From a virus, in the IMG/VR virus record IMGVR_UViG_3300033141_004690, positions 1-23,627 of that record: a stretch of 23,627 bases of DNA; one strand, written 5' to 3'. Positions 1 through 17,716 of the stretch are shown piece by piece (within the stretch, counting starts at the first letter, position 1; each line of letters starts with the position of its first letter). Made by a program: the position numbers and the translations under genes. The notes below the pieces were generated by a model. That model was given only the letters and a program-made list of their open reading frames with translations. It was not told where the DNA came from and ran no database searches.

Positions 1-519
1 CTCCTCGCAACGGTGCGGGAGGGGAATCGGAGTTGGCTCCGGCAGCGGGACCTCGCGGCGATTGCACTAATGCTGGGTGCGGGGTTGCGAATCTCCGAGG
101 TTGTCGGCCTGGACTTGGGTGACCTCAACCTGGAGTCCGAACCTGCATCTGCGCTCATTGAGCGGAAGGGCGGCGACCAGCAGCGTCTACCCCTCAACGC
201 CTGGGTAGAGGAGCTGCTCTGTGACTACCTGGCGGTGCGCCCGGAGGTTGAGACTGACGCCCTCTTCGTGACCACACATCGGCGACGCTGGGGTCGGACG
301 CCGCTGGGTCTCCGTGTCAAACGGTATCTCCAACGAGCCGGGTTGCCAGGCTCTGCGCATACCCTGCGCCACACCTTCGCAACGCTGCTGCTGGCGCGGG
401 GCGTTCCCATCACCTACGTGCAGAGGGCGCTCGGCCACCACTCGCTTAAGACGACCGCCATCTATCTCCACCTCATCCCTGGTGAGCTGGAGAAGGCGGT
501 GGAGGCGCTCGTGTTTTGA
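1..519 (+). CDS. Tyrosine recombinase/integrase, C-terminal catalytic part (5' truncated by window edge)
   Basis: Site-specific recombinase of the XerC/XerD/phage-integrase family, which cuts and rejoins DNA through a 3'-phosphotyrosine. The frame is open to base 1, so the gene starts outside the window. The GTG at 13 is only an internal codon, and residues here are counted from it. The catalytic set is complete: Arg26 in GLRISE, the beta-hairpin Lys52, His116 and Arg119 in HTLRH, His142 in LGHH, and the nucleophile Tyr151 in IYLH. The N-terminal SAM-like DNA-binding domain is missing from view. It lies upstream of small + strand genes and converges on the phage late operon, as expected for a phage or prophage integrase, though a resolvase of a plasmid-like phage is also possible. 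No att site was recognised. Confidence 0.93.
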   Translation, partial: LLATVREGNRSWLRQRDLAAIALMLGAGLRISEVVGLDLGDLNLESEPASALIERKGGDQQRLPLNAWVEELLCDYLAVRPEVETDALFVTTHRRRWGRTPLGLRVKRYLQRAGLPGSAHTLRHTFATLLLARGVPITYVQRALGHHSLKTTAIYLHLIPGELEKAVEALVF

Positions 520-14463: not shown

Positions 14464-16224
14464 CTACCTCGCCCCCACCGTGGCCCCGTGGAGGGCATCA
14501 AGGGCCACCCGCCGCTGCCTTTCGTCAAGCTTCTCGTTACCGATGTAGACGTTGACGGGCACCGTTATCTCCGGGGGTTTCACTCCCGGCCCCTGGGCCG
14601 CAGGCAACCCCAAGGACTTTCGAGCCGCAGCTATCTCCCCCGCCGTAGGTGCTGCTCCCGCCTCCTTTTGCATCCACCTCTCTTCAGCCAAGGTCTTCCC
14701 GGTCGCACCGGGTGTGATAAAGCCCATAAGCGTCTCTCGTACTGTTGGCGTGACTGCCTTGAGTTCCGCTGTCTTGCCAACCAGGTCAGCGTACTCTTCC
14801 GTCTTGGCCTTGCACTCTGCTATCGCCGCCGCCGTCTCTTTAGCGGACTGCCAGAGCTTGTAGAACTCAGTCGCCAGCAGAGCAACACCACCAGCCAGAG
14901 CAATCCAGGGTCCTGCCGCCAGTAAGCCCGGCCCCAGCGCAGTCAAGGCACTTGCCACCTCGCTCACCAGACCCGGCAGCTTGCCGAAGAACCCTATGAG
15001 GCCCGGTCCTACTCTGACAATCCCACTCAAGGCGCTCGAAACCGTCGGCAGCATGTAGACCAGCGGGCCGAACGCCTGGCAGAATGCCCCTATCCCCAGC
15101 GCCCACTTGGTAGCACTCTTCCCCAAGTCGGTCTTCACAAAGTCACCCACACGCGCTATGAAATCGGTGAGCATGGGGAGTATCTCAGCGAGGGTTTCAC
15201 GAACAGGCTCCCCGACCTCAATGGCGAAGTTCTTGAGTTGGGCGGTAATCTCCCGCCACGGACCCATGCCCTTCTCCGCTTTGGTGGCGGCGGCCTCAGC
15301 CGCAAACCCCTGCTTCTGTATCTCCTCGGTGGTCTTCGCGACAGCGTCGACCTGCCCTATCAAGGCCCTGGCAGCAGCGCCCGCCCGACTTCCGAACATG
15401 GCCGTGATGTTGGCCCCGCGCTCCTGCGCCGTGGTCAACAGCTCGATGAGGGTCACGGGGCTTTTCATGGCCTTGGTCACATCGGCCATTGAGATGCCCA
15501 CGCCCTCGAACTCAGTCACCATCTTCTTAGTCGGGGCCAGCAGCTTGTCAACCATCCCCCGGAAATAGGTCCCCGCCATGCTCGCCTCGCCGGTCACCTT
15601 GATGACCTGGTCGGTCACCGCGATGGTGTCCTCAAGCGACCAGCTGAGGGAGCGACCGGCCATCCCCGCGTATTTCATAGTCTCCGCCAGCTCATCACCC
15701 TGGAAAGACGTGTCCGCCAAGGCCCCGGTGAGCGTATCGGCTATCCGCGCCATGTCGCCGGTTCCTAGCCGGAACTGCTCCATCAGGTTGAGCATAATCT
15801 TGGTGGTCTCACCCTGTTCGAGGCCGAGACCGATGCTCGTCTCGGTGATGGGCTTGAGCATCTCCTGCATCTTAGCGATGTTGTAGCCCTCTGATGCCAG
15901 CCGCTTATACGCCCCCGCCACGTCGGTAGCACTCAGACCGAGCTTGGTGAAATCCTGCGCTTTGCAGGCCTCGCGTATGGCCTCCATTTCCTTGGCGGTC
16001 GCACCGGACTGTATCTCCACATCGGCGAGCACATCCTCAAACGATGCAGCTTCCCGTCCGGCGGCAAGCAGACCACCGACCACGGTGGTGCCAGCAGCAG
16101 TCATGCCCGCGCCAACTTGCCGCAGGCTGGTGGCGTTGGCCCTTATCTTGTCACCCAACCCCTTCAGGCCGCGACTGGCCTCGTCCTTGAGACCGACTAT
16201 GATGCTGACCGTGTAGTTAGCCAC
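14464..16224 (-). CDS. Tail tape measure protein, 586 aa
   Basis: Sets tail length and is ejected ahead of DNA. The N-terminus (MANYTVSIIVGLKDEASRGL) and the following core (about 60-330: SFEDVLADVEIQSGATAKEM, LASEGYNIAKM, GMAGRSLSWSLEDT, ALIGQVDAVAKTTEEIQ) match the phage tape-measure core family. Residues 372-455 are hydrophobic and Gly-rich with several possible membrane-spanning segments, common in these proteins for DNA passage. It starts at GTG 16224, overlapping the stop of the frameshifted chaperone (GTGGCTAA), which couples the two. At about 0.15 nm per residue the length predicts a tail near 90 nm, short for a siphovirus. No lysozyme or peptidase domain is present. Confidence 0.93.
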   Translation of the reverse strand: MANYTVSIIVGLKDEASRGLKGLGDKIRANATSLRQVGAGMTAAGTTVVGGLLAAGREAASFEDVLADVEIQSGATAKEMEAIREACKAQDFTKLGLSATDVAGAYKRLASEGYNIAKMQEMLKPITETSIGLGLEQGETTKIMLNLMEQFRLGTGDMARIADTLTGALADTSFQGDELAETMKYAGMAGRSLSWSLEDTIAVTDQVIKVTGEASMAGTYFRGMVDKLLAPTKKMVTEFEGVGISMADVTKAMKSPVTLIELLTTAQERGANITAMFGSRAGAAARALIGQVDAVAKTTEEIQKQGFAAEAAATKAEKGMGPWREITAQLKNFAIEVGEPVRETLAEILPMLTDFIARVGDFVKTDLGKSATKWALGIGAFCQAFGPLVYMLPTVSSALSGIVRVGPGLIGFFGKLPGLVSEVASALTALGPGLLAAGPWIALAGGVALLATEFYKLWQSAKETAAAIAECKAKTEEYADLVGKTAELKAVTPTVRETLMGFITPGATGKTLAEERWMQKEAGAAPTAGEIAAARKSLGLPAAQGPGVKPPEITVPVNVYIGNEKLDERQRRVALDALHGATVGAR

Positions 16225-16773
16225 GTCTCACACCTCGCCTGGCCCTGGCGTCCCGCCGCTCCCGTTCAGCGGCCTTGCCCCTCTCCTCCAGGATAATGAG
16301 CCAGCGCTGAATCACCCACGCTGGCTCACGGTCGAGCTGCTCGCGGGTGTAACCACCCAGTGTTTCGAGCAGCACAAACTCTAGGATTTCGTCGGGTGGG
16401 TTCGCAACAGAGCGCCCCTCGACAAAATCGCGGGCTAACTGTCGGAACCCCCCGCCGGGGGGACTACACCACCGCTCCCCTGCTGACCGATGGAGGTGAC
16501 AGCCCTCACTATCGCCCTGGCAAGGCCCGGCGAGAAGGTGTCGAGAACTTCAGGGGTCACCTTCGTGACCGGGTTCCCGTCCTTGTCCTCGACACCCCTG
16601 ATGCTGTGGATGTAGGCACAGACCTTCTCCCCAACCGCATCCAGCGTTGCGGGGTCCTCGTTTGGCAGGGCGTCAATCTCCTTGACGAGCTTCTTGTATT
16701 GCCCCCAGTCAATGTTGAGTATGAGGGTGACCTCATCATTGACGGGCACCGTCGTAAGCTGTCCAACTTTCAT
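16217..16773 (-). CDS. Tail assembly chaperone GT-type product by -1 frameshift, about 185 aa
   Basis: Analogue of lambda gpGT, which binds the tape measure and recruits tube subunits. Reading in frame from ATG 16773 to codon 109, then slipping -1 at G-GGG-GGT (16453-16447), gives 76 more residues, beginning FRQLARDFVEGRSV and continuing through EILEFVLLETLGGYTREQLD and WVIQRWLIILEERG to a basic tail. This frame has no stop until TAA 16219-16217, which overlaps the tape-measure GTG. The extension looks like coding sequence: amphipathic helices and a charged end. The extension has no plausible start of its own. An indel in the C6/G6 tract would give the same picture, but the position between tube and tape measure is exactly where this recoding is conserved in tailed phages. 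Confidence 0.85.
16435..16773 (-). CDS. Tail assembly chaperone, unshifted G-type product, 112 aa
   Basis: The major product of the chaperone gene, ending at TAG 16437-16435 when no slip occurs. The N-terminal part (VTLILNIDWGQYKKLVKEI) is strand-helix, followed by an acidic helical middle (LPNEDPATLDAVGEKVCAYIHSI) and a Gly/Pro-rich end GSGGVVPPAGGSDS that carries the slippery run. It lies between tail tube and tape measure, as in lambda G. In that system the short form is made in excess and both forms act during assembly and are absent from the virion. The start ATG 16773 has GGGAG about 11 bases upstream, a relaxed spacing. The 70 bases upstream of it (16774-16843) hold no gene. Confidence 0.87.
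   Translation of the reverse strand: MKVGQLTTVPVNDEVTLILNIDWGQYKKLVKEIDALPNEDPATLDAVGEKVCAYIHSIRGVEDKDGNPVTKVTPEVLDTFSPGLARAIVRAVTSIGQQGSGGVVPPAGGSDS
16447..16453 (-). promoter_or_regulatory. -1 ribosomal frameshift slippery heptamer (G GGG GGT)
   Basis: On the - strand the frame-0 codons GGG GGT are preceded by G, a perfect X-XXY-YYZ heptamer in which both tRNAs re-pair with GGG after a -1 slip. The 0 frame meets a stop five codons downstream; the -1 frame stays open for 76 codons. A second legal heptamer, C CCC CCG, lies just upstream at 16462-16456. No clear downstream pseudoknot was found by eye. Confidence 0.8.
16448..16462 (-). other. C6-GGC-G6 hairpin overlapping the slippery site
   Basis: CCCCCCGGCGGGGGG forms a 6-bp all-GC stem with a three-base loop; its 3' arm is the slippery G-run itself. 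Unlike usual stimulators it overlaps the slip site rather than lying downstream, so it must melt as the ribosome enters. Confidence 0.55.
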
Positions 16774-16843: not shown

Positions 16844-17716
16844 TCAGGCCAGCGAGACTGCGAACACGTCCAGGTCGTTGTGCTCGGCCTCCGCGCTGAC
16901 CCTCCACAGGACCTCGTCGGCACCACTCTCGATGGGCAGCGGGTCGCCCGCCAGGTGCAGACCGTTGCCACCTGTCAGGTCCACGGTGAGGAGCTGACCC
17001 GCCTGGGACGTGCCCGTGGCCTTGAACCCGAAGGTCGGCACCCAGTCGGCGATGAAGTTGAAGCTTGCTCTGACGCGGAACTCCACGGTCAGCGCGACTG
17101 AGAAGTCCCCAGGGTCCATCCACTCAGGCAGCCTCTCCGCGTCGGTGGCCTTCTCGTCCTCCGAGGTCTGCGCCGTGATAGCGTTCTCGACGGTGACGGT
17201 CCAGCGTTGGGTCTTGAACATCTCGTCAGCTATCAGCACGTTGCCGGTATGCCAGGCGATTGCGAGATTGCTGGCCTTCTTCGCGGCGGCGGCGGCGATG
17301 TTCACCTGCTCCTGCCCCAAGGCCATCCAGTTGTAGGTCGCCATGAATAGGCCACCCCGCTCGCAGCTCAACTCCAGCGTGTTGAGGTAGCAGTCGGACT
17401 GTTTGCGAGCGGCGTTGACATTGCCGACGACGCCACCCTGGATGAACTTGATGACAGGTGGCAGCGCCCCAACAGAGGGAGGCTTCGCGCAGTTGATGAG
17501 GTCGAGGGACTGGACAGCACAAGTGGCGTTGCCGATGGGCACGACCATGTCTCGATAGACGATGTCCTGCCCGCCCGTGCCGACATTGTGCTGCGGCTCG
17601 CCACCCTCGTAGTCGAGACCGCCGCTGTCCACCTTGTCGAAACTAACCCACGGGCCGCTACCGGCCACATCGTATTCTGCACACTCGGACAGCCCTACAT
17701 AGGCCTCTACTGCCAT
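16844..17716 (-). CDS. Major tail tube protein, 290 aa
   Basis: Forms the hexameric rings of the tail tube. The call rests on position (directly after the terminator and before the chaperone pair), length and beta-rich pattern. Typical stretches are FDKVDSGGLDYEGGE near residue 26, RDMVVPIGNATCAVQSLDL near 55, TLELSCERGGLFMATYNW near 113, and WTVTVENAITAQT and VALTVEFRVRAS later. A C-terminal section (LTVDLTGGNGLHLAGDPLPI and DLDVFAVSLA) describes a final beta domain; lambda V carries an Ig-like one, but this was not confirmed. Only one such gene exists and no sheath gene precedes it, supporting a non-contractile tail. ATG 17716 has GGGGTGA just upstream, overlapping the previous stop. Confidence 0.82.
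   Translation of the reverse strand: MAVEAYVGLSECAEYDVAGSGPWVSFDKVDSGGLDYEGGEPQHNVGTGGQDIVYRDMVVPIGNATCAVQSLDLINCAKPPSVGALPPVIKFIQGGVVGNVNAARKQSDCYLNTLELSCERGGLFMATYNWMALGQEQVNIAAAAAKKASNLAIAWHTGNVLIADEMFKTQRWTVTVENAITAQTSEDEKATDAERLPEWMDPGDFSVALTVEFRVRASFNFIADWVPTFGFKATGTSQAGQLLTVDLTGGNGLHLAGDPLPIESGADEVLWRVSAEAEHNDLDVFAVSLA

Follow-up and report, generated by a model that had tools for sequence, protein, structure and literature searches.

A lambda-type G/GT tail assembly chaperone locus with tandem GC-only slippery heptamers, predicted in an uncultured siphophage-like virus

The genes located between the tail tube and tape measure genes in the viral record IMGVR_UViG_3300033141_004690 (positions 1 to 23,627, hereafter the window) very probably encode the G/GT tail assembly chaperone of a siphophage-like, uncultured virus; a minority -1 slip on a C6/G6 tract would give rise to the GT protein. 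The codon bias of the T extension, its match to PHROG 9001, the T parts and slip sites of related phages, and the identical tract in a second contig place the locus in the lambda-type G/GT class. Synteny, T-domain homology and the slip sites of the relatives give strong support to the assignment as a lambda-type recoding site, and from the same sequence data we infer that slippage occurs, at which heptamer and how frequently, and that both G and GT are made. Frameshifting of the G/GT type is itself ordinary biology, and this locus is unusual only in that its tandem heptamers are GC-only and are accompanied by a hairpin.

According to the mechanism that we propose, most ribosomes would end G at TAG 16437, and a minority would shift to the -1 frame within the C6/G6 tract, using G_GGG_GGT, C_CCC_CCG or both, and so produce a fused GT protein of approximately 185 residues. 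In the lambda model (PMC5009743), G binds the tape measure protein, T brings in the tail-tube subunits, and the ratio of the two products is determined by slippage. By analogy, the G part would here coat the tape measure protein in many copies, the T part would recruit tail-tube subunits, and the G:GT ratio, set by the slip frequency, would matter for assembly.

Gene neighbourhood and the two reading frames

The coordinates of the analyzed features are summarized in Table 1. The gene order is head maturation protease, major head protein, head-tail adaptor, neck protein, tail tube, G, T and tape measure, and the two frames thus follow the major tail protein and precede the tape measure, where lambda-type chaperones are located. 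From neck to tape measure, this order is the one known from tailed phages, and it can also be observed in Bacillus phages Jayan and vB_BpsS-36.

Table 1. Features of the predicted G/GT locus and of its flanking genes
Feature	Position	Strand	Description and evidence
Tape measure protein	14464..16224	-	586 aa, start GTG 16224; PHROG 1533 E 5.7e-55, Pfam PF10145 E 7e-30
T, -1-frame extension	16217..16447	-	76 aa, from TTC 16447-16445 to TAA 16219-16217; translation
Predicted RNA hairpin, candidate stimulator	16394..16453	-	dG about -31 to -36 kcal/mol, z about -5 to -7
G (0 frame), predicted tail assembly chaperone	16435..16773	-	112 aa, ATG 16773, TAG 16437-16435; ORF
Slippery heptamer G_GGG_GGT (site of the initial annotation)	16447..16453	-	in-phase; corresponds to the slip sites of relatives in its placement before the T domain
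Second in-frame heptamer C_CCC_CCG (alternative or additional slip site)	16456..16462	-	in-phase
SD-like stretches GGAG (16478-16475) and GGTGG (16473-16469)	16469..16478	-	upstream of the heptamers; read from sequence
Tail tube (major tail) protein	16844..17716	-	just upstream of G; Pfam PF18906 E 1.7e-6, PHROG 290 E 4.6e-5

The initial annotation described G as ending at a TAG before the tape measure gene, and a -1 frame as remaining open for 76 codons past G_GGG_GGT up to a TAA that overlaps the tape-measure GTG. The ORF list and the translation confirm both points; the TAA lies 8 nt inside the tape-measure ORF, and the overlapping -1 frame therefore reaches the tape-measure start, as required of a lambda-type G/GT pair. 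In arrangement, the locus is like lambda G/GT (PMC5009743): it is positioned between tail tube and tape measure, G is short and in frame 0, a heptamer is present at the end of G, and T extends in the -1 frame up to the start of the tape measure. It differs from lambda in the shorter T (76 aa) and in the C6/G6 heptamers. The T frame contains no ATG, GTG or TTG before GTG 16375, which is situated past a conserved FVEG..NPP motif and is not preceded by a Shine-Dalgarno (SD) sequence, in agreement with the initial annotation that the extension has no start of its own.

The -1 frame stays open in 9% of the dinucleotide shuffles of the region, so that its openness alone is weak evidence, and the case is carried by homology and by codon bias. 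When scored with a model derived from the window's other genes, G showed in its own frame a codon bias of 0.35 bits per codon, like the other genes. Past the overlap only the -1 frame has a positive bias (up to 0.45), the others being negative, corresponding to a switch from frame 0 to frame -1.

Several other genes of the window deserve mention. The large adjoining proteins encoded at 14461-12749 and 12747-9883 (both on the minus strand) have in common a stretch of about 40 residues (REYLECLVATKAEHDDWTEEQVEDHCKADYEEEHGHP, KEYRDCLVDTRAKHPSWSDEEIKEHCQAAYEEKHGHS), and the former matches an LVIVD repeat. A LAGLIDADG-like endonuclease (9880-9080, minus strand; PF14528 E 3e-9, PHROG 4645 E 3e-43) is encoded within the tail gene region, and a family 2 glycosyltransferase (5136-3922, minus strand; PF00535 E 1e-18) downstream of the tail genes. 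The C-terminal part of the protein encoded at 8837-7155 (minus strand), for which no family match was obtained, consists of about 10 tandem copies of a GELPFSYG-like motif. A tyrosine integrase gene at 1-519 (plus strand), cut by the edge of the window, suggests that the phage is temperate.

Homology of G and T and the slip sites of related phages

The T extension matched PHROG 9001, "tail assembly chaperone", with an E value of 2.2e-4, and its comparison with a profile built from the T domains of nine relatives gave an hhalign probability of 91% (E 9e-7). Over 76 columns it is 32% identical to the T part of Jayan. The same PHROG also matches the T parts of Jayan (8e-28) and of Gordonia phage Jumbo (1e-5), which ties these three groups together. 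Taken with the phage-like codon bias and the homologous T parts of the relatives, these matches bear out the earlier impression that the extension is a genuine protein. The tblastn matches in isolate phages were weak; two of them are located at the equivalent position in Bacillus phages Jayan and vB_BpsS-36.

The similarity of G to known G proteins is marginal. The BLASTP E value was 0.23, and the profile comparison with the G proteins of Bacillus phages gave an hhalign E value of 0.0026 with a probability of 11%, which is a weak similarity. Searches of PHROG, Pfam and NCBIfam returned no significant family match for G, as expected for fast-evolving chaperones, and T had no match in Pfam or NCBIfam. 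No relative was found by tblastn with G alone or in scans of genome contigs, and the capsid and tail-tube queries had no match among the isolate phages. The 12-row alignment of T sequences was too diverse to be used as a search query. The AlphaFold model of G is unreliable (pLDDT 47); that of T is helical (pLDDT 71) and had no matches in a structural search, and a sequence search of the PDB found nothing.

Slip sites were then analyzed in 14 isolate phages. In 11 of them, A_AAA_AAG or A_AAA_AAA is located 0-1 codons before the G stop, with T in the -1 frame, which remains open for 224-254 nt past the heptamer. These 11 comprise phages of Bacillus, Geobacillus and Rossellomorea, and records labelled Staphylococcus and Pectobacterium. 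The same A_AAA_AAG/A arrangement was observed in five further viral contigs (a sixth, L026, is outside this count). The Bacillus phages Andromeda, Jayan, 276BB001 and their relatives (T in PHROG 9001, G in PHROG 9046) are like the window in the homologous T, the gene order, a similar size of G, the -1 overlap and the presence of a heptamer at the G stop. They carry A_AAA_AAG or A_AAA_AAA, whereas the window has C_CCC_CCG and G_GGG_GGT together with a strong predicted hairpin, and its G is only marginally similar to theirs. In Bacillus phages 276BB001 and 019DV002, G/GT is annotated as a joined CDS.

Gordonia phage Jumbo, which is also annotated as joined, has G_GGA_AAT immediately before FRRQARQFVEG, and the window has G_GGG_GGT immediately before FRQLARDFVEG. 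As both heptamers abut the T motif, the slip region appears to be orthologous, with the heptamer changed; the G of Jumbo is longer (203 aa). In Rhodococcus phage Perlina and Gordonia phage Camerico, the T domain is in the -1 frame, and no classical in-phase heptamer was found at the junction; T of Camerico is not annotated as joined.

The initial annotation had proposed that G/GT recoding is conserved at this position and that relatives with a stop-filled -1 frame would speak against it. The -1 frame of the relatives is open, with a heptamer at the junction, and the synteny, the T-domain homology, the corresponding slip sites and the joined annotations support the proposal. We rejected the alternative that T is never fused to G and is expressed as a gene of its own, through re-initiation or internal initiation. 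Several relatives are annotated in this way, their T being assigned an internal start, but the first possible start in the window falls after the FVEG..NPP motif and is devoid of an SD sequence, the sequence conservation extends as far as the heptamer, and the heptamers would be left unexplained; we regard this reading as very improbable.

The analysis of tract accuracy was based on IMGVR_UViG_3300033149_003963 (24384 bases), the only other contig found for this virus; in the viral-contig searches with G, T, tape measure, tail tube and capsid, it was the only one returned. It differs from the window at 13 of 11758 aligned bases (99.9% identical), without indels, and contains the identical C6/G6 tract. 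It is important to mention that such a near-identical contig is uninformative as to selection on the tract and covariation of the hairpin. The possibility that the tract was wrongly assembled or sequenced, and that G and T form a single uninterrupted gene, arises from the fact that the junction lies in a homopolymer, the usual site of indel errors. An altered tract length had been named beforehand as evidence against recoding; the unaltered tract of the separate contig, and the corresponding frame break that relatives have at this point with a different heptamer, led us to reject this explanation as extremely improbable.

Slippage of RNA polymerase, and not of the ribosome, on the G6 or C6 tract could also produce the fusion, as homopolymer tracts can cause transcriptional slippage. 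We consider this highly unlikely, owing to the A6-7 heptamers of the relatives, which are in ribosomal slip phase, and to the fact that transcriptional slippage in bacteria usually needs longer A/T runs.

Slippery heptamers and the predicted hairpin

In addition to G_GGG_GGT, a second in-frame heptamer, C_CCC_CCG, which the initial annotation had not listed, was identified 9 nt upstream, and the two are thus located at 16 and 25 nt before the G stop. The slippery heptamer of lambda is GGGAAAG. This phage has few in-frame X_XXY_YYZ heptamers (10 in 5839 codon positions), so that two within the 112-nt overlap are unlikely by chance (Poisson P about 0.0013; for at least one, P about 0.05). Slippage at C_CCC_CCG would give a fusion reading PPGGGFRQLA instead of PPAGGFRQLA, and the predicted products (PPGGGFR and PPAGGFR) differ by one residue. 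A literature search found no paper on the G_GGG_GGT heptamer in tail chaperones.

All 64 heptamers have been measured in E. coli (Sharma et al. 2014, PMC4066793); without a stimulator, G_GGG_GGU was the lowest of the 64 (0.018%) and C_CCC_CCG was one of the motifs above 0.10%. When a strong pseudoknot was present, only three heptamers failed to exceed twice the background, and G_GGG_GGU was not one of the three, which indicates that structure matters. The weakness of G_GGG_GGU without a stimulator argues against G_GGG_GGT as the only slip site.

A very stable hairpin, one of the most stable local folds in the 19-kb region, is predicted at the junction, formed by the pairing of GGG/GGGUUC/CGACAG with CUGUUG/GAACCC/CCC, with bulges and an additional apical stem. 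Its predicted start at 16453-16450 is 2-5 nt past C_CCC_CCG, and its 5' arm is the G6 tract. Only 0.25% of the windows sampled across 19 kb had a z as low as that of the fold from 16450. Judging from the ribosome footprint, a ribosome positioned on G_GGG_GGT would already have melted most of this structure. An alternative stimulator for G_GGG_GGT, a 10-bp stem (GAUUUUGUCG/CGACGAAAUC), was rejected, since it lies about 17 nt past the heptamer, which is too distant, and its z of -1.9 is unexceptional.

Upstream of the heptamers, the motifs and spacing of GGAG and GGTGG are within the stimulatory range given for C_CCC_CCG in PMC4066793, and GGTGG is in the range for G_GGG_GGT too. The best anti-SD pairing (GGTGGTGT) is 12 nt from the G6 heptamer and only 3 nt from the C6 heptamer, a spacing better for G6. 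The layout of a three-part signal, with an SD-like stretch 6-17 nt upstream and a stable structure close downstream, fits C_CCC_CCG, and partly G_GGG_GGT. In this respect the locus is like the three-part -1 signals of dnaX and IS911 (SD-like stretch, heptamer, here C_CCC_CCG, and downstream hairpin), a likeness drawn partly from general knowledge. It differs from them in the heptamer and the gene, and the stimulation of frameshifting by the SD-like stretches and the hairpin is putative here.

These observations allow a reading in which the recoding is the same G/GT recoding, with the slip taking place at C_CCC_CCG and the G6 tract serving mainly as the 5' arm of the hairpin in a dnaX/IS911-like signal. 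The heptamer is in-frame, the hairpin is suitably placed for it, and its efficiency in E. coli is higher in the data cited above. The decoding tRNAs also favour it: tRNA-Pro with cmo5U34 can read both CCG and CCC, whereas GGG does not pair with the tRNA-Gly(GCC) that reads GGU. However, the slip sites of the relatives align with G6, directly before the T domain, the best anti-SD pairing lies only 3 nt from C6, most poly-A relatives have no hairpin of comparable strength, and the E. coli efficiencies may not apply in the host. We give this reading somewhat less than an even chance. As slip sites, G_GGG_GGT, favoured by positional homology, and C_CCC_CCG, favoured by the hairpin placement and the E. 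coli data, are about equally likely, and both may be used. The slip site originally proposed retains its phase and its correspondence to the sites of the relatives; it is less certain than first proposed that G_GGG_GGT is the slip site, or the only one, given the better placement of C_CCC_CCG relative to the hairpin and its greater slipperiness in E. coli.

We tentatively suggest, as a possible but rather unlikely history, that A_AAA_AAG at an orthologous GT site was replaced by the tandem C6/G6, with G6 forming the 5' arm of a hairpin that stimulates slippage at C_CCC_CCG. If this is true, a weak GC-only slippery site would have been rescued by RNA structure, and if C_CCC_CCG and the hairpin are the working signal, the locus would be a compact system for testing how RNA structure makes up for a poor heptamer. 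With the G/GT assignment, an unannotated ORF pair of an uncultured phage can be named G and GT, and the heptamers recorded at orthologous loci for tail chaperones would come to include a GC-only slip site.

The strongest other fold in the 19-kb sampling is a very stable predicted hairpin at 19289-19222 (minus strand; dG -36, z -7.8). It is situated in the gap between the stop of the major head protein gene (19304) and the start of the next gene (19220, by position), where it may be a terminator or a processing site.
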